This document shows positions 8,799 to 50,424 of a DNA stretch of 50,838 nt, piece after piece (the first letter of the stretch is position 1; each line of letters begins with the position of its first letter). The DNA lies in assembly GCA_937891825.1 (NCBI GenBank), contig CALAHN010000043.1, forward strand, positions 1 to 50,838, in the 5' to 3' direction. This stretch comes from an uncultured Alphaproteobacteria bacterium. GTDB taxonomy: Bacteria > Pseudomonadota > Alphaproteobacteria > Bin95. The notes beneath the pieces were generated by a model. The model ran no database searches. It saw nothing but the letters and a program-made list of their open reading frames with translations, and had not been told where the DNA came from. The position numbers and the translations under genes are program-made.

Positions 8799-9470
8799 TC
8801 AGCCTCCATGCGAGCTGGATTCAGACTCGGCCTCGCCGCTGTCGCTCGGACCATCCACATCGCCGCCGAAGGAGGCGGCGGCAATCGCCGGGATCGAAAC
8901 GGTTTGCGATACAGACACCGATGCGCCCGACGTCGAGCCGGTCGAGCCCGCGCCGACGCCGCCGCTGTCGCCGCTGCCGGAGGTCATCTCGACTTCGCCA
9001 GAAATCACCGAGACCGTTGTCGAACCGTCCTCGGCGACTGCCACGACAAAGTCCGTGCCGCGCACGCCAAGCGTCGCGGTCGGCGTCCGCACCTTGTAGC
9101 TTTGGCTCGCCATCCTGCCGGACACAAAGCGCATCAAGCCCTTGCTGACATTCAACGCGACATCGCCCGAACTCTTGCTGGGATCGAAGACGAAGCGATC
9201 GACTTTCACCTTGGACGAAGAGCCGACGATGAGTTGCGTGTTATCCACGAACTTCACATCCAGACGACCGTCGATCACGGTCTCGAGCTCCGTATTCGTG
9301 ACGACATCGTCGCGCAGGAAGATAGGCTCGCGCGCGCCTTGCGGCGGCGTCTCGTAGCCGTAAACCTGCACATAAGCTACCTGGCCGACGGTTTCGGCTG
9401 TCGCGTAAAGCGGCGACAGAACCAACGCGCCCCAGATCGCGGCGCTTGCAAAGCCAAAACCTTTATGCAT
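8799..9470 (-). CDS. Secreted FecR-domain protein
   Basis: The 223-residue protein has an N-terminal signal peptide (about residues 1-25, cleavage near ATA-ET). A FecR/beta-helical domain follows, with the conserved stretch VRTPTATLGVRGTDFVV at about residues 125-141. The C-terminal 70 residues are rich in Ser and Gly and low in complexity. Unlike classical FecR it has no cytoplasmic N-terminal anti-sigma helix and no transmembrane anchor, so it should be periplasmic or exported. No FecI-type sigma factor or TonB receptor gene is nearby. GGGG lies about six bases before the ATG. A second secreted FecR protein occurs at 44846-45478. Confidence 0.8.
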   Translation of the reverse strand: MHKGFGFASAAIWGALVLSPLYATAETVGQVAYVQVYGYETPPQGAREPIFLRDDVVTNTELETVIDGRLDVKFVDNTQLIVGSSSKVKVDRFVFDPSKSSGDVALNVSKGLMRFVSGRMASQSYKVRTPTATLGVRGTDFVVAVAEDGSTTVSVISGEVEMTSGSGDSGGVGAGSTGSTSGASVSVSQTVSIPAIAAASFGGDVDGPSDSGEAESESSSHGG

Positions 9471-9686: not shown

Positions 9687-9761
9687 GCGGGAGTAGCTCA
9701 GGGGTAGAGCATCACGTTGCCAACGTGAGGGTCGAGGGTTCGAATCCCTTCTCCCGCTCCA
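9687..9761 (+). tRNA. tRNA-Gly (anticodon GCC)
   Basis: A complete cloverleaf can be drawn. The acceptor stem pairs GCGGGAG (9687-9693) with CTCCCGC (9751-9757). The D-arm carries AGCTCAGGGGTAGAGC, the anticodon arm is TCACG-TTGCCAA-CGTGA with anticodon GCC, and the T-arm has GGTTCGAATCC. The 3' CCA (9759-9761) is encoded. It reads GGC and GGT glycine codons, which suits the GC-rich codon usage. Confidence 0.97.
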
Positions 9762-44845: not shown

Positions 44846-45478
44846 CTAGTTGAAGCTGATCGTCTTGACAGCCCGGTCGATCTTTTCCTGCGGCCAGGCA
44901 TGCGGCGCGGAGGGGCCGTGCATGGGATGCATGATCATCGTCGCCTCGCCGGCTTTCAGGGTGACGGCGCCGCCAGCCGTCGAGACCACGACTTCGCCGT
45001 CCAGCACGAGAATGCCATAGCCATCGTCGATCGTGCCGCCCCAGACGGTGGTGCCGCGGACGCCGAGCGTGCCGATCGGGGTGGTGATATCGACATTGCC
45101 GCCCGTCTTGCCTTCGATTGCGCCGCCGACGAACAAGAACGCGCCCTGAACGACTTCAAACGCCAGTTTCCCGCCTTCCCTGGCCGGGTCGTAGGCAAAT
45201 TCGTCGACGACGAGGCTGGCGTTCTCGCCGAGCGTCAATTTCGTGCCGTCCTTCAGGGTTGATTGCAGCCGCGCCTTCTTGCCGGTCTGCAGGCGGTCCT
45301 CGAAGATCACTGGCGCGCCGTCAGCCAGTCGCCGCGCATCGCCGCCATAGATCGCTTCGGCGCGAAGCTGAACCTTGTCGATGGCGCCGACGGCCGGCCG
45401 TTCGGCCACGGCGGATGCTGCGGGGATCAAAGCTGCGGCGAACAGAGCTGCGGCCAGGGTGTGCTTGATGTTTGACAT
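44846..45478 (-). CDS. Secreted FecR-domain protein next to cyclic-nucleotide signalling genes
   Basis: The 210-residue protein starts from an ATG with AAGG upstream. A signal peptide covers about residues 1-25 (ASAVAERP). The FecR domain contains LTLGENASLVVDEFAYDP and ITTPIGTLGVRGTTVWGG, typical of periplasmic FecR-like repeats. There is no transmembrane helix or anti-sigma domain. It is downstream of and in the same direction as the EAL-domain gene (53-base gap), and near a divergent CHASE2 cyclase. It may be a periplasmic ligand or binding partner for the CHASE2 sensor; this is inference. Confidence 0.82.
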   Translation of the reverse strand: MSNIKHTLAAALFAAALIPAASAVAERPAVGAIDKVQLRAEAIYGGDARRLADGAPVIFEDRLQTGKKARLQSTLKDGTKLTLGENASLVVDEFAYDPAREGGKLAFEVVQGAFLFVGGAIEGKTGGNVDITTPIGTLGVRGTTVWGGTIDDGYGILVLDGEVVVSTAGGAVTLKAGEATMIMHPMHGPSAPHAWPQEKIDRAVKTISFN

Positions 45479-45531
45479 GGTCATCCTTCTTTATCAGGTT
45501 GGATCGTTCTGGCGGGATCGGAGGGCGGCTG

Positions 45532-46803
45532 TCAGACCGCCTGCTTCTGGGCTTCGACGCCGATGGTCTTTCCCCAGGCGCCAAGGAGGCCAGCCGCATC
45601 GGCGCGCGGCATCGGGCGGGCAAAGTAGTAGCCCTGGCCGTACTCGCAGCCGAGGTCGCGGAGGCAGTCCGCATCCCGTTTCGTCTCGATGCCTTCGGCG
45701 ACGACGGGGATTTGCAGCTCCTTGGCCATGCTGAGGATCGAGCGGATAATCTTCATGCTGCGATCGTCGTCATGCATCGCCATCACGAAGCTGCGGTCGA
45801 TCTTCAAAGTGTCGATCGGGAATTTGTGCAGATAGCCCAGGCTGGAATAGCCGGCGCCGAAATCGTCGATCGCGATGCTGAGGCCCTTGATCTTGCATTC
45901 GCGCAGGGCCTCGGCGGCGCGCTCCGGCTGCTGCATCAGCATGGTTTCGGTGATTTCGAGTTTTAGGCGGCGCGGATCGGCGCCCGTCTTCAGCAACGTC
46001 CGCATGATGTTCGAGACAAAGTTCCGGTCGTCGAAATCGCGGCCCGAAACATTGACGCTGACGAACATATCGTCCCGAACATGATCCTCGGGCCTGCGCA
46101 GCCCTTCGAATTCCATGAACCCGGTGCAGGCCTGCTCCAGGCAAAGCCGGCCAAGCGGCACGATCAGGCCGCTCGCCTCGGCAGTCGGAATGAAGACCAT
46201 CGGCGAAATCAGGCCGCGGGTCTTGTGACGCCAGCGGACAAGCGATTCGAAGCCAGCGATCGCCGTATCCCGAAGATCGACGATGGGCTGAAAGTGCAGC
46301 TCGAAATCCTGATGCTCGATCGCCTGCTCCAGCTCGCGCTCAAGCCGGATTTCCTGGATCGCGACATGCTCACGTTCGTCGTCGATAGCCGTAAGGCTGT
46401 TCAGGGGCGCGTCGCCCAGATTGACGCCCTGGAGTTGATCCATGGTCGAACGAAACCGCTCCATCAGCACGGTCAGGAGCATGCGAAGGATCGGGTCGCT
46501 TTCCTCGATCCGCCGGTTCAATTGCTCGCGCGTGATCAACAGGAGTTCGCAGTTCGAAGCGGCGGTCACCGTCGCCGTCCGCGGCTTGTTGTCAATGATC
46601 GCCATTTCGCCGAAAATCTCGCCGGCGCCGCGCCGCGCCAGCACAACCTTCTCGGCGCCGCGCTGGATGCTGATCTCGACCTGGCCGCGCTCAACGAAAT
46701 AGGCGCATTCGCCAGCATCGCCAGCCTGGAAAATATTGGCGCCTTTCGCGACCAGGAGCCCGTCGAACATCGAACTGTGTTCGCTCATGCTGACGTCCAT
46801 CAT
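45532..46803 (-). CDS. Cyclic-nucleotide-binding domain fused to an EAL c-di-GMP phosphodiesterase
   Basis: The protein has 423 residues. An N-terminal cNMP-binding domain (about 12-120) has the phosphate-binding cassette FGEMAIIDNKPRTATVTA (Glu66, Arg75). The EAL domain (about 160-415) carries ESL at 186-188, Asn251, EITET (about 283-287), DDFGAGYSSL (313-322), Lys334 in KIDRSF, Glu370 in AEGIE and Gln390, so the catalytic set for c-di-GMP hydrolysis appears complete. cAMP or cGMP binding could therefore control c-di-GMP breakdown. No membrane segments are seen. The start at 46803 has a second ATG one codon later. It diverges from the CHASE2 cyclase gene and precedes the FecR gene. Confidence 0.88.
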   Translation of the reverse strand: MMDVSMSEHSSMFDGLLVAKGANIFQAGDAGECAYFVERGQVEISIQRGAEKVVLARRGAGEIFGEMAIIDNKPRTATVTAASNCELLLITREQLNRRIEESDPILRMLLTVLMERFRSTMDQLQGVNLGDAPLNSLTAIDDEREHVAIQEIRLERELEQAIEHQDFELHFQPIVDLRDTAIAGFESLVRWRHKTRGLISPMVFIPTAEASGLIVPLGRLCLEQACTGFMEFEGLRRPEDHVRDDMFVSVNVSGRDFDDRNFVSNIMRTLLKTGADPRRLKLEITETMLMQQPERAAEALRECKIKGLSIAIDDFGAGYSSLGYLHKFPIDTLKIDRSFVMAMHDDDRSMKIIRSILSMAKELQIPVVAEGIETKRDADCLRDLGCEYGQGYYFARPMPRADAAGLLGAWGKTIGVEAQKQAV

Positions 46804-46899
46804 ACAGGTCCGCAAGCATTGATACTCGCTCAGGTTTCCTTAAGACGCCGCTAATAGGATGCGACGCATTCGCAATGCCTTCCTGGAAGGACGACCGAA

Positions 46900-49047
46900 A
46901 TGCCCTTCAGCTTGCGCCGCGTCACAGCCCGCCATGGCTTCGCCATCGCGCTTGGCCTGGCCACGCTCGCCGGCGCCGCGACCCTGCGCGTCTGGGACCC
47001 GGAACCGGTCGTTCGCAGCCGCCTTGCGGCGTTCGATTTCTATCAGCGCGTCTGGACGCGGCCGGCGCGGGCGGCGCCGGTCAGCGTCGTCGATATCGAT
47101 GAAGCCAGCCTCAGCCGGATCGGCCAGTGGCCCTGGCCGCGCCGGCAGATCGCCGCTCTGGTCGACCGACTGACCGAGGCCGGCGCCGCCGTCGTCGCCC
47201 TTGACATGATCCTCGCGGAGCCGGATCGCTCCTCCCCGTCCCTGCTGCGGCCCATCCTCAAGGCCGAGGGCCTGATCGGGACCGACGCCAGCCAAGCCTG
47301 GCCCGACTATGACGCCGAGCTGGCCGCCGCATTCCGGCGCGGCCGCGTCGTCGCGAGCTTCGGGATGCACGGGATAGCGAACGACGCCCGGCCGGCCCTG
47401 AAAACCGGGTTCGCCATTCTGGGCGACGACCCAAGCGCTGGCCTAAGCCGCTATGCCGGCGCTGTCACATCTATTCCAGCGCTTGAGGCTGCAGCGCTTG
47501 GCAATGGCGGCATTAGCGTCGTCTCCGCCACCGACCAGACAATTCGGCGCACGCCGCTCCTCGCCGCGCTCGACGGCCAAGTCTATCCATCGCTCGTCCT
47601 TGAGGCGCTGCGCGTCGCCCAGGGCCGGGACAGCATCGCCGTCAAATCAAGCGACGGCCACGGCCTGAGCGCCGTCCGCGTCGGCAGAGTCGAGATACCG
47701 CTGGAGCGGGACGGCCAGATGTGGCTCCGCTATGCAGAGACGCCGCCTGGCCGAACGCTCCCCGCATGGTCAGTGCTGGACCAAAGCGCAGCCGACCTCC
47801 GCGCCAGGGTCGGGGGGCGCATCGTGCTGGTCGGGTTCAGCGCCGTCGGCCTTTCCGACCTCCGCGCGACGCCCCTCAACCCATTTGAGCCAGGGGTCAA
47901 CATTCACGCCGAGGCGATCAGCCAAATCATCGCGGCCGATTGGCTTGGCCGCCCCAGTTGGACGGTCGCCACGGAGCTTGCCGCTGTCATCGTCATGGCA
48001 TTGGCGGTCATCCTGGCGCTTGCCGGCTTCGGCGCCCGCGCCGGCGGACTGGCGGCCGCGGTCGGGATCGTCGCTGCGGCCGGCGGCTCCGCCTATGCAT
48101 TCCAGCATGCCGGGCTGCTGCTGGACCCGGTCTTCCCGGCAGCGACGCTGCTCGCGGTCTATGTCGTCGTGGCGGCCGCGGTGACGCTCCGGACGGAAAA
48201 GGAACGCGGGCAGATCCGGACTGCATTAGGGCAGTTCCTTTCGCCCGGCCTCGTCGCCCAGATCGCAGAGAACCCGGAAGCCCTGGCGCTCGGCGGCGAA
48301 GCGCGCGACATGACCTTCCTGTTCACCGACCTGGAAGGCTTCACGGCCATGACCGAGCGGCTGGCCCCGGACGCGCTCGTGCGCATCCTGAACCAGTATC
48401 TCGACGGACTGTGCGCCATCGTGCTCGACCATGGCGGGGCGGTCGACAAGATCGTCGGGGACGCCGTCCATGCCATGTTCAACGCGCCGGTCGCCATGGC
48501 GGACCACCCGGCGCGCGCCGTCCGTTGCGCCCTGGCGATGGACGCCTTCGCCATGGCGTTTCAAGCGCGCCTGAAGCAGGAGGGCTACAAGATCGGCGTG
48601 ACGCGCATCGGGGTGAACACCGGGACCGCGATCGTCGGCAACTTCGGCGGGCAGCGCCGGTTCGACTACACCGCCCACGGCGACGCCATCAACACGGCCG
48701 CGCGCCTGGAAGCAGCCAACAAGCATCTCGGCACCCGGATCTGCGTCGCCAAGAGCACGGCCGATCGATGCCCGGACATCGCCTTCCGCCCGACCGGCGC
48801 GTTGATGCTGCGTGGCAAGAGCGAAGGCGTGGAAACCCTGGAGCCGACCCGCGACGGCGTCTTCGCAGCATCCGACCTGGCCTCGCATCATGCTGTCCAT
48901 GCCCGGCTCCAGAACCGCGAGGATACGGCGCAGGCGCAAGCCGACCTCGCCCGCCTCGCAGCGGAGCATCCCGACGATGCGCTGCTGCGCTTCCAGGCTG
49001 GCCACATCGCGAGCGGCGCGGCCGGTCTTCGGATAACGGTCGGCTAG
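46900..49047 (+). CDS. CHASE2-domain class III adenylate cyclase
   Basis: The 715-residue membrane protein has an N-terminal TM helix, a periplasmic CHASE2 sensor (about residues 35-340, with VSVVDIDEASLSRIGQWPWP), three TM helices (about 355-430) and a class III cyclase domain (about 470-640). Metal aspartates are Asp477 (FTDLEGFT) and Asp521 (GDAVHAMFN). Lys517, and Thr in FDYTAHGD, fit ATP selection. Asn598 and Arg602 (NTAARLE) are transition-state residues. All catalytic positions are present, so it should make cAMP. AAGGA lies nine bases before the ATG. It is divergent from the cNMP-binding EAL gene and likely feeds it. Confidence 0.93.
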   Translation: MPFSLRRVTARHGFAIALGLATLAGAATLRVWDPEPVVRSRLAAFDFYQRVWTRPARAAPVSVVDIDEASLSRIGQWPWPRRQIAALVDRLTEAGAAVVALDMILAEPDRSSPSLLRPILKAEGLIGTDASQAWPDYDAELAAAFRRGRVVASFGMHGIANDARPALKTGFAILGDDPSAGLSRYAGAVTSIPALEAAALGNGGISVVSATDQTIRRTPLLAALDGQVYPSLVLEALRVAQGRDSIAVKSSDGHGLSAVRVGRVEIPLERDGQMWLRYAETPPGRTLPAWSVLDQSAADLRARVGGRIVLVGFSAVGLSDLRATPLNPFEPGVNIHAEAISQIIAADWLGRPSWTVATELAAVIVMALAVILALAGFGARAGGLAAAVGIVAAAGGSAYAFQHAGLLLDPVFPAATLLAVYVVVAAAVTLRTEKERGQIRTALGQFLSPGLVAQIAENPEALALGGEARDMTFLFTDLEGFTAMTERLAPDALVRILNQYLDGLCAIVLDHGGAVDKIVGDAVHAMFNAPVAMADHPARAVRCALAMDAFAMAFQARLKQEGYKIGVTRIGVNTGTAIVGNFGGQRRFDYTAHGDAINTAARLEAANKHLGTRICVAKSTADRCPDIAFRPTGALMLRGKSEGVETLEPTRDGVFAASDLASHHAVHARLQNREDTAQAQADLARLAAEHPDDALLRFQAGHIASGAAGLRITVG

Positions 49048-49060
49048 CGCAAGGACCGCG

Positions 49061-49480
49061 TCAGCCCGCCAGCAGCACGACCGCGAGCGCCAGGTGGGTC
49101 AGGGCATGCAATTGCTGATCCGCCCCGAACAACCACCAGAACCGGGCGTTGGCGGGCGTCAGTCCGGTCGCCAGGCCGATCCGCGCCTTCATGAAGTCGA
49201 TCAGGGCATGGACGAAGAAGTCGACAAACGCCAGCCAGACGAAGGCGGGATTGACCGCGAGCGCGACCAGGGCCGTCCCAAAGCCGTGCATGCCGGCGTG
49301 GACGAACAGCGGCGGCGCCCACCCGGCGCGGCGCTGCTTGCCCTGCGCCATCCAATCGGTCTGGAGGATGTAATCCGCCAGCAAATGCTTGATTTCAAAC
49401 AGGACAAACACGACGATGACGGCCCCAAGCGTCACCTGTGTCGTCCCCAACGCCCCGATGCCCATCCCGCCCCTACTCAT
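49061..49480 (-). CDS. DUF3307 membrane protein
   Basis: The 139-residue integral membrane protein has about four hydrophobic segments and the DUF3307 pattern FEIKHLLADYILQTDWMAQG, PLFVHAGMHGFGTALVAL and VDFFVHALIDFMKARIG. Conserved His and Asp in the helices suggest a metal site. Function is not established. The ATG at 49480 lacks a good ribosome site; an ATG at 49465 preceded by GGGGCGGG is an alternative. It converges with the cyclase gene. Confidence 0.82.
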   Translation of the reverse strand: MSRGGMGIGALGTTQVTLGAVIVVFVLFEIKHLLADYILQTDWMAQGKQRRAGWAPPLFVHAGMHGFGTALVALAVNPAFVWLAFVDFFVHALIDFMKARIGLATGLTPANARFWWLFGADQQLHALTHLALAVVLLAG

Positions 49481-49570: not shown

Positions 49571-50424
49571 GAGCCTAAAATCAAAAGATCAAGAAGGATA
49601 GCAATGCCTTGCGATCCTTCGCGTTATGATTCGGATGCTGGCGATGAAGGCCCATACTGTGGCGCTTTCTGTCGTGCGCTCCCAATCCTTCGCGAGCCTG
49701 CGGCAGCGTCCGAGTCAGGCGAAGGCGCGTTCGACGACGCAGCGTCTCGGCACGACCTTTTAGCCCTTAGCGGCGCCAGAACGCTTGATGATCTCCAAGG
49801 TCCAGCCGCCCTGGCTTTTGAGCGCCATACACAGTTTCTCGCCGCCAAAGCCGCCGTCGGCAATGACGTGACGCAGCCAGGGGAACCGATGGCGAACCGC
49901 CTTCAAAAGGTCCGGGGCGCCGTCCCGGTCCTGAATGTCGGCCGCGTGGACGATCACGAACAGCATCATCCCGAGCGTGTCGGTCAGGATATGCCGCTTG
50001 CGGCCTTTGATTTTCTCGCCCGCGTCATACCCGCGAGGCCCGCCGAATTCCGTGGTTTTCACGCTCTGGCTGTCGATCACGCCGGCCGTCGGGCTCGCCT
50101 CGCGCCACTCCAACGCCCGCGCGCACATCGCCAGAACATGGTTGATCGCCGTGAACAGTCCCAAGTCCCGCCAGGCGTAGAGATAGCCCGGCGCCGTGGT
50201 CATCGGCGGAAAGTCCTTCGGCAGCGCGCGCCCCGCTTCGCCGCCGGAAACAGTCCGGATATCAAATCCCATTCCCGATCCAGCAAGTCGCTTGGATAGC
50301 GGGACGTCGAACGCCTATGATCCCGACGAGCGATATCTGTCCAGGCCATATGATCCTCCATCTCTTCGCAAAGACGGTGAATCACAACCTACTGATATCG
50401 CTCAACTCCTTTTCGGTCAGGCTC
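49571..50424. mobile_element. Decayed IS5-family insertion sequence (IS427/IS1031-like)
   Basis: The left end is GAGCCTAAAATC at 49571 and the right end GGTCAGGCTC at 50424. They are imperfect inverted repeats, and the same ends recur at the window edges. Flanking triplets are TTA (49568-49570) and TCA (50425-50427), both TNA but not identical. About 854 bp; the encoded transposase has a DDE catalytic fold but is broken. The left edge differs from the copy at 50790 by an extra base. The element is probably non-autonomous now, though it could be mobilised in trans. Confidence 0.82.
49589..50349 (-). pseudogene. Broken IS5-family transposase
   Basis: The N-terminal part reads RYPSDLLDREWDLISGLFP and AAKRG, the start of IS5 transposases. 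The frame then shifts and about 27 conserved residues are absent before ALPKDFPPMTTAPGYLYAWR in another frame. The catalytic domain shows VIDSQSVKTTEFGG (first Asp) and VIADGGFGG (second Asp). A TAA at 49760-49762 ends the frame after RSGAAKG, and a TGA at 49715-49717 follows where tryptophan is usual. The DDE glutamate (VVERAFA, codon 49730-49732) lies beyond the first stop. The longest remaining open part is 49760-50272. Confidence 0.85.

Follow-up and report, generated by a model that had tools for sequence, protein, structure and literature searches.

To our knowledge, most of what is known about the wiring between cAMP and c-di-GMP in bacteria concerns indirect links at the level of transcription. 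The window analyzed here, positions 1 to 50,838 of contig CALAHN010000043.1 of an uncultured alphaproteobacterium, carries between positions 44846 and 49047 genes for a cyclase with a CHASE2 sensor, for a protein fusing a cyclic-nucleotide-binding (cNMP) domain to an EAL phosphodiesterase domain (hereafter, the cNMP-EAL protein), and for a FecR-domain protein. The question raised by this locus is whether the three products make up one route that leads from the periplasm through cAMP to c-di-GMP. The identities of the genes are clear, the active sites of the two enzymes are intact, and the clustering is conserved. Taken as a whole, the locus is best explained as a periplasm-to-c-di-GMP signalling cassette, a reading to which we assign a probability of about 0.6. 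In such a cassette, CHASE2, probably with the secreted FecR protein, would sense a periplasmic or envelope condition and control the class III cyclase, a membrane-bound enzyme predicted to produce cAMP. The cAMP would bind the paired cNMP domains of an EAL dimer and, by analogy with the Bdellovibrio enzyme Bd1971, switch the phosphodiesterase on; c-di-GMP would be hydrolysed and its local level would fall, with a shift from sessile to motile life as the likely outcome.

Gene layout and the CHASE2 cyclase

All three open reading frames (ORFs) in the region 44846-49047 are intact and lie where a first-pass annotation of this DNA had placed them, with the refinement that the FecR-domain gene (44846..45484, minus strand, 212 aa) opens at 45484, and the start given previously, 45478, is a second in-frame ATG. 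As that annotation also stated, the cyclase gene (46900..49047, plus strand, 715 aa) is divergent from the cNMP-EAL gene (45532..46803, minus strand), which has an ATG start and encodes 423 aa; an alternative TTG start at 46815 is possible. The 96 bp between the two start codons (46804..46899) presumably contain the promoters, and by-eye inspection of this intergenic region recognised no CRP-like site. The cNMP-EAL and FecR genes are on the same strand, separated by a gap of 47 bp, and probably form one transcript. The host genome assembly comprises 4.3 Mb in 163 contigs.

The cyclase matches the Pfam models CHASE2 (193 bits, cut-off 26.3) and Guanylate_cyc (64 bits, cut-off 21.9). CHASE2 occupies residues 33-371, hydrophobic segments are found at 352-388 and 404-432, and the cyclase domain spans residues 470-641; thus, sensor, membrane segments and class III catalytic domain are all present in a single chain, and the description of the gene as a complete CHASE2 cyclase is correct. 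A membrane segment would also be expected at the N-terminus, ahead of CHASE2, but it fell below the hydropathy threshold used. The catalytic residues, which had been annotated as complete, all align with those of CyaB (3R5G): D477 and D521 for the metals, K517 and T591 for adenine, and N598 and R602 for the transition state. K517 and T591 form an adenine-type pair, from which we infer cAMP as the predicted product.

Relationship of the cNMP-EAL protein to Bd1971

The cNMP-EAL protein matches cNMP_binding (PF00027) at 75-78.7 bits (cut-off 27.5; 46501..46752, minus strand) and EAL (PF00563) at 246-247.6 bits (cut-off 31.3; 45613..46338, minus strand). Its phosphate-binding cassette, FGEMAIIDNKPRTATV (residues 64-79), is intact and includes the phosphate-contacting arginine R75 followed by T76, within the motif PRTATV. 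The earlier statement that the EAL catalytic residues are in place proved accurate: all nine positions checked (E186, N251, E283, E286, D313, D314, K334, E370, and Q390) are present and invariant in 24 homologues, and the signature itself reads ESL instead of EAL.

In a phmmer search against the PDB, the top match of the protein was Bd1971 (E 2.5e-86, residues 24-403). Furthermore, with an AlphaFold2 model of mean pLDDT 87 as the Foldseek query, Bd1971 structures took ranks 1 to 6 (E values between 5e-42 and 7e-39, 36-37% identity), among the deposited ones being 6HQ4, 6HQ5, and 6HQ7. The cNMP-EAL protein is thus a full-length homologue of Bd1971, with matching domain composition and order. 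Bd1971 of Bdellovibrio bacteriovorus is described as a c-di-GMP phosphodiesterase that turns its substrate over about 8-fold faster in the presence of cAMP or cGMP, the activation running via a CRP-like sensor dimer (PMC6717892). Since the window protein is a full-length homologue of this assayed enzyme, the step from cAMP to EAL activation is strongly supported, as far as homology can predict it. According to the same paper, full-length homologues exist in Micavibrio, other proteobacteria and cyanobacteria, among others, and the cNMP-EAL fusion is therefore already known. The first-pass annotation had singled it out as a direct link between two second messengers; it cannot count as a new one, since such a link was published for Bd1971 in 2019.

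The two proteins share the domains and their order over the full length, the cassette arginine, and all EAL catalytic residues. However, they are about 36% identical; Bd1971 has the canonical EAL signature, whereas the window protein has ESL, Ser68 of Bd1971 corresponds to T76, and the C-helix residues that contact the base differ. In addition, in the passages considered, the paper mentions no partner cyclase alongside Bd1971, whereas the cNMP-EAL gene of the window adjoins a CHASE2 cyclase gene.

The residue T76 bears on which nucleotide the partners exchange. If the cyclase were of guanylate or mixed type, the messenger might be cGMP, or the EAL protein might answer both nucleotides. According to the Bd1971 study, protein kinases that prefer cGMP carry Ser or Thr at the position equivalent to T76, so that PRTATV would place Thr where such domains have it; Bd1971, with Ser there, accepts both nucleotides, and cGMP is the slightly better activator (PMC6717892). 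The CHASE2 cyclases of Sinorhizobium are also termed AC/GC in the literature (PMC13001267). However, K517 and T591, aligned with CyaB, form the adenine-type pair, and we regard this alternative as improbable.

Conservation of the cluster in Alphaproteobacteria

A genome of the same genus (G001, contig L006) has the same three-gene block in the same order and orientation, with the cyclase and cNMP-EAL genes divergent and the FecR gene downstream. Identities to the window are 55-56% for the cyclase, 57% for the cNMP-EAL protein, and 73-74% for FecR; this assembly has a reading-frame break near the 5' end of the FecR gene. No match to the ORFs flanking the block in the window was found on the congener's contig. 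The block has therefore stayed together although its surroundings changed, and the three genes are no chance neighbourhood. Among 13 genomes of the genus and family, the cNMP-EAL fusion and the orthologues of the cyclase and FecR genes occur together only in this congener; the other family members in the set have neither a cNMP-EAL gene nor close orthologues of the cyclase and FecR.

A full-length cNMP-EAL gene was found in 26 of 386 Alphaproteobacteria genomes. In four Micavibrio-type genomes, it is adjacent and convergent to a CHASE2 cyclase gene, with 7-25 bp between the ORFs; three of these genomes are from one other family, and the fourth, Micavibrio sp. TMED27, comes from another collection. 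The gene does not adjoin a CHASE2 cyclase in about 20 further alphaproteobacterial genomes that carry it, and thus the pairing is not obligatory. A search for conserved co-occurrence, which the first-pass annotation had suggested as a check, gives a divided answer in this way: the adjacency holds in the window genus and in one other family, and fails in the further genomes, so that conservation of the pair across the class is rejected. In G096, a CHASE2 cyclase of a different subtype lies about 5 kb from the cNMP-EAL gene on the same contig, and was not counted. Directly upstream of the cNMP-EAL gene of G186 is a different class III cyclase, whose start looks MerR-like by eye. In the wider phylum, few cNMP-EAL matches were obtained in 397 genomes at the threshold used, and three non-alphaproteobacterial cNMP-EAL loci have no CHASE2, cyclase, or FecR gene within about 9 kb.

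In the cyclase tree, the cyclases of the window and its congener are set apart from the Micavibrio-type group by starred branches, which force two changes. Thus, the pairing formed on at least two occasions, unless the pair was reshuffled or one partner replaced, and a single origin of the pair through cyclase descent is rejected. The deep branches of the cNMP-EAL tree are too weakly resolved to decide on a single origin.

A further question is whether the cAMP used by the pair is its own. The host genome contains at least 12 class III cyclase matches (among the matches listed in a PF00211 profile search), 11 cNMP-binding matches, and 5 EAL matches. With these numbers, a dedicated relay would need a local pool or a complex, and the cAMP may be shared with other proteins of the cell. 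Thus, of the relay proposed previously, the step from cAMP to the EAL protein stands, whereas its dedication to this one cyclase is put in doubt by the many cyclase and cNMP-binding genes. One explanation is that the cNMP-EAL protein serves a cell-wide cAMP pool, as is thought for Bd1971, and that the adjacency reflects co-regulation or chance inheritance. The number of cyclases would agree with this, as would the separation of most cNMP-EAL genes elsewhere from CHASE2 cyclases and the report that Bd1971 moderates overall c-di-GMP (PMC6717892). However, the block is conserved in the congener despite unrelated flanks, and the same pair is adjacent, in a different orientation, in another family. 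The chance of finding the pair in two of 17 families is 8e-5 to 3e-4, a rough estimate that ignores the choice of the window for its content; counting the other families only, it is 0.01-0.02. We therefore consider service of a cell-wide pool alone unlikely, and prefer the signalling cassette.

Each part of this cassette is of a known kind, and what is new is the pairing of a CHASE2 cyclase with a cNMP-EAL protein, of which we found no report in the open-access literature, a body of work that mostly excludes subscription journals. A related system is found in Sinorhizobium meliloti, in which the CHASE2 class III cyclases CyaD1, CyaD2, and CyaK feed cAMP to Clr and NsrA is required for sensing (PMC13001267). 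There too, CHASE2 cyclases act through cAMP on a cNMP-binding effector; however, this effector, Clr, belongs to the CRP family of regulators, and NsrA, the envelope protein, is an outer-membrane beta-barrel, not a FecR protein. Bd1971 is itself a direct protein link between cAMP and c-di-GMP, and its description leaves open which cyclase feeds it. For a specific cNMP-EAL enzyme, the window cluster and the corresponding Micavibrio-type pair point to one particular candidate cyclase, and input, messenger, receptor, and output thereby become testable as one unit. The pairing and its recurrence are useful in this respect, as they make a direct circuit between cAMP and c-di-GMP accessible to experiment.

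FecR proteins and the possible input to CHASE2

The FecR protein scores 41.7 bits with the Pfam model FecR (cut-off 24). Residues 8-28 resemble a signal peptide, in agreement with the earlier annotation, and are the only hydrophobic segment; the product is predicted to be a secreted, stand-alone, single-domain protein of the periplasm with no sigma or anti-sigma domain and no anchor. FecR-type cell-surface signalling domains resemble its structure model (pLDDT 88.9); a weaker match is 5ix9, deposited as a cell surface anchoring domain (E 0.03, 1.2 A over 62 columns). A second FecR gene lies elsewhere in the window, at 8802-9470.

Two known roles of related domains were considered and rejected. 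Regulators of the FecI/FecR/FecA type have an N-terminal anti-sigma domain, a membrane segment, and an adjacent ECF sigma gene. The fold of the FecR part is common to these regulators and the window protein, but the latter, with 212 aa, consists only of the FecR domain and the signal-peptide segment. As for a function as an ECF anti-sigma factor, no sigma gene is adjacent, the neighbours in a Pfam scan being the cNMP-EAL gene and an FMO-like gene. The LapA/LapG system, in turn, consists of a LapG-type BTLCP protease and a type I secreted (T1SS) adhesin with a retention module. The FecR protein scores 21.9 bits with the retention_LapA model, below the cut-off of 50 bits; PF06035, the protease model, has no match in the window genome (G000) or in G001, and no T1SS gene was present among the ORFs scanned around the cluster. 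Since the window genome is without a LapG-type protease, the Lap route cannot be the mechanism there.

For the input side, we surveyed the neighbours of 54 CHASE2 genes, 40 of them with a cyclase domain, mostly from genomes sampled for the cNMP-EAL gene. A FecR gene lies within 1.5 kb of 13 of the 54, a count that includes the window pair, against 0.14 expected, and this enrichment holds regardless of the output domain, whether cyclase or, as in L156, histidine kinase. The stand-alone FecR proteins linked to CHASE2 in three families have in common a C-terminal PxxW...(K/R)(I/V) motif. As noted in the first-pass annotation, FecR-CHASE2-cyclase neighbourhoods are known in bacteria: published clusters of Campylobacterota combine a CHASE2 cyclase, FecR, a cAMP phosphodiesterase, and a TPR protein (PMC9239204). 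They resemble the window in clustering a CHASE2 class III cyclase with a nucleotide phosphodiesterase and an envelope protein that has a FecR domain; however, the substrate of their phosphodiesterase is cAMP itself, and they include a TPR protein, whereas the phosphodiesterase of the window is a cNMP-binding c-di-GMP enzyme. In the biofilm operon BiofilmReg of Burkholderia, a LysM-FecR protein is encoded with a CHASE2 histidine kinase (PMC5192318); again a secreted FecR protein is coded next to a CHASE2 sensor, but the output is a phosphorelay, whereas that of the window is cyclic nucleotides.

The recurrent neighbourhood and the published clusters together suggest that FecR is a partner or input of CHASE2, which lends some support to that part of the earlier proposal. 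On the other hand, FecR is absent from the Micavibrio-type clusters, which have the cyclase and the cNMP-EAL protein, and it is thus no universal part of such clusters. FecR may be functionally separate, its position reflecting only the clustering of envelope genes, with CHASE2 sensing without it; the location of the window FecR gene on the strand of the EAL gene, and not on that of the cyclase, fits this as well. Such a separation would concern the input step only and would be compatible with the signalling cassette at its output step. Against the strong enrichment whatever the output domain, the clusters of Campylobacterota and Burkholderia, and the shared C-terminal motif, we hold a separate FecR to be possible but rather doubtful.

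The survey also places the window among other effectors. A cNMP-binding gene was found near 8 of the 40 CHASE2 cyclases, and six of the eight are cNMP-EAL cases, favoured by the sampling. Two further cases were not selected for: in G055, a CHASE2 cyclase shares an operon with FecR and a CRP-like regulator, and in G387, the gene for a cNMP-gated Na+/H+ exchanger lies 4 bp from a CHASE2 cyclase. The G055 cyclase is, apart from that of the congener, the nearest to the window clade in the tree (98/93), with a long branch that makes its placement less sure. With a CRP-like regulator, an exchanger, and cNMP-EAL proteins as examples, the cNMP effector encoded next to a CHASE2 cyclase can vary, and the window holds the c-di-GMP-phosphodiesterase version.

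Type I secretion genes are near 8 of the 40 CHASE2 cyclases, including all four Micavibrio-type loci, in which TolC, ABC, HlyD, and cyclase ORFs run in one direction and overlap or nearly touch. Near other CHASE2 cyclases, the FecR domain forms the N-terminal part of long proteins, several of them with RTX, Calx-beta, VWA, or Ig-like repeats, and genes for LapG-type proteases lie about 1-6 kb from the cyclase in G192, G276, and G096. These neighbourhoods suggest that CHASE2 cyclases may monitor exported adhesins through their FecR-fold modules. In the same open-access literature, subscription journals again being mostly outside it, no link of CHASE2 with type I secretion, or of FecR domains with type I secreted adhesins, was found. 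What CHASE2 senses was stated to be unknown in the 2016 Burkholderia paper (PMC5192318), and the pattern offers a testable idea of this input, namely FecR-fold proteins tied to the export of surface adhesins. As a tentative extension, alphaproteobacterial CHASE2 cyclases might sense the state of envelope proteins with a FecR fold, which would at first have been the part of type I secreted adhesins that stays in the periplasm, and signal via cAMP to a neighbouring cNMP effector that differs by lineage; the window would then combine a free periplasmic FecR with a c-di-GMP-lowering effector and provide a feedback from the envelope to c-di-GMP through cAMP, without LapD/LapG.

Cyclases and cNMP-binding effectors in other genomes

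In one of the genomes compared (G055), a CHASE2 cyclase gene shares an operon with the genes for FecR and for a cNMP-binding, CRP-like regulator (L190:4131-7413). The cyclases of this operon and of the window group together in the cyclase tree, although the G055 row has a long branch and its placement is less sure. Compared with the window cluster, the G055 operon has the same input and a different cNMP effector. In G387, a CHASE2 cyclase gene lies 4 bp from the gene for a Na+/H+ exchanger that carries a cNMP-binding domain (L163:1350-6191). In G186 (L132:8804-11631), the gene directly upstream of a cNMP-EAL gene encodes a class III cyclase whose start looks MerR-like; the two are possibly a third type of cyclase/cNMP-EAL pair.

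Secretion and protease genes near CHASE2 cyclases

In Micavibrio-type genomes, genes for TolC, an LssB-type ABC protein, HlyD and a CHASE2 cyclase are co-directional, with overlapping or nearly touching ORFs (L007:9223-16392; also L133, L134 and L141). Similar T1SS-CHASE2 neighbourhoods were seen at L164, L167, L168 and L172. In three genomes, a LapG-type BTLCP protease gene (L210:292-705, L211:6386-6703, L212:9345-9761) lies about 1-6 kb from a CHASE2 cyclase gene.

Cluster surroundings and FecR genes

The first gene after the window's CHASE2 cyclase gene, convergent to it, encodes a DUF3307 protein (49061-49480, minus strand); none was found adjoining the orthologous cluster of the congener. 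A DDE transposase fragment (49760-50272, minus strand) is also near the cyclase end of the window's cluster. The congener's FecR orthologue (L006:4900-5528) has a reading-frame break close to its 5' end, either real or an assembly error.

The window encodes a second secreted FecR-domain protein (8799-9470, minus strand; Pfam, 57.5 bits), which lacks the C-terminal PxxW motif seen in the CHASE2-linked FecR proteins; its gene has no CHASE2 gene in its surroundings. A tRNA-Gly gene (9687-9761) is located nearby.
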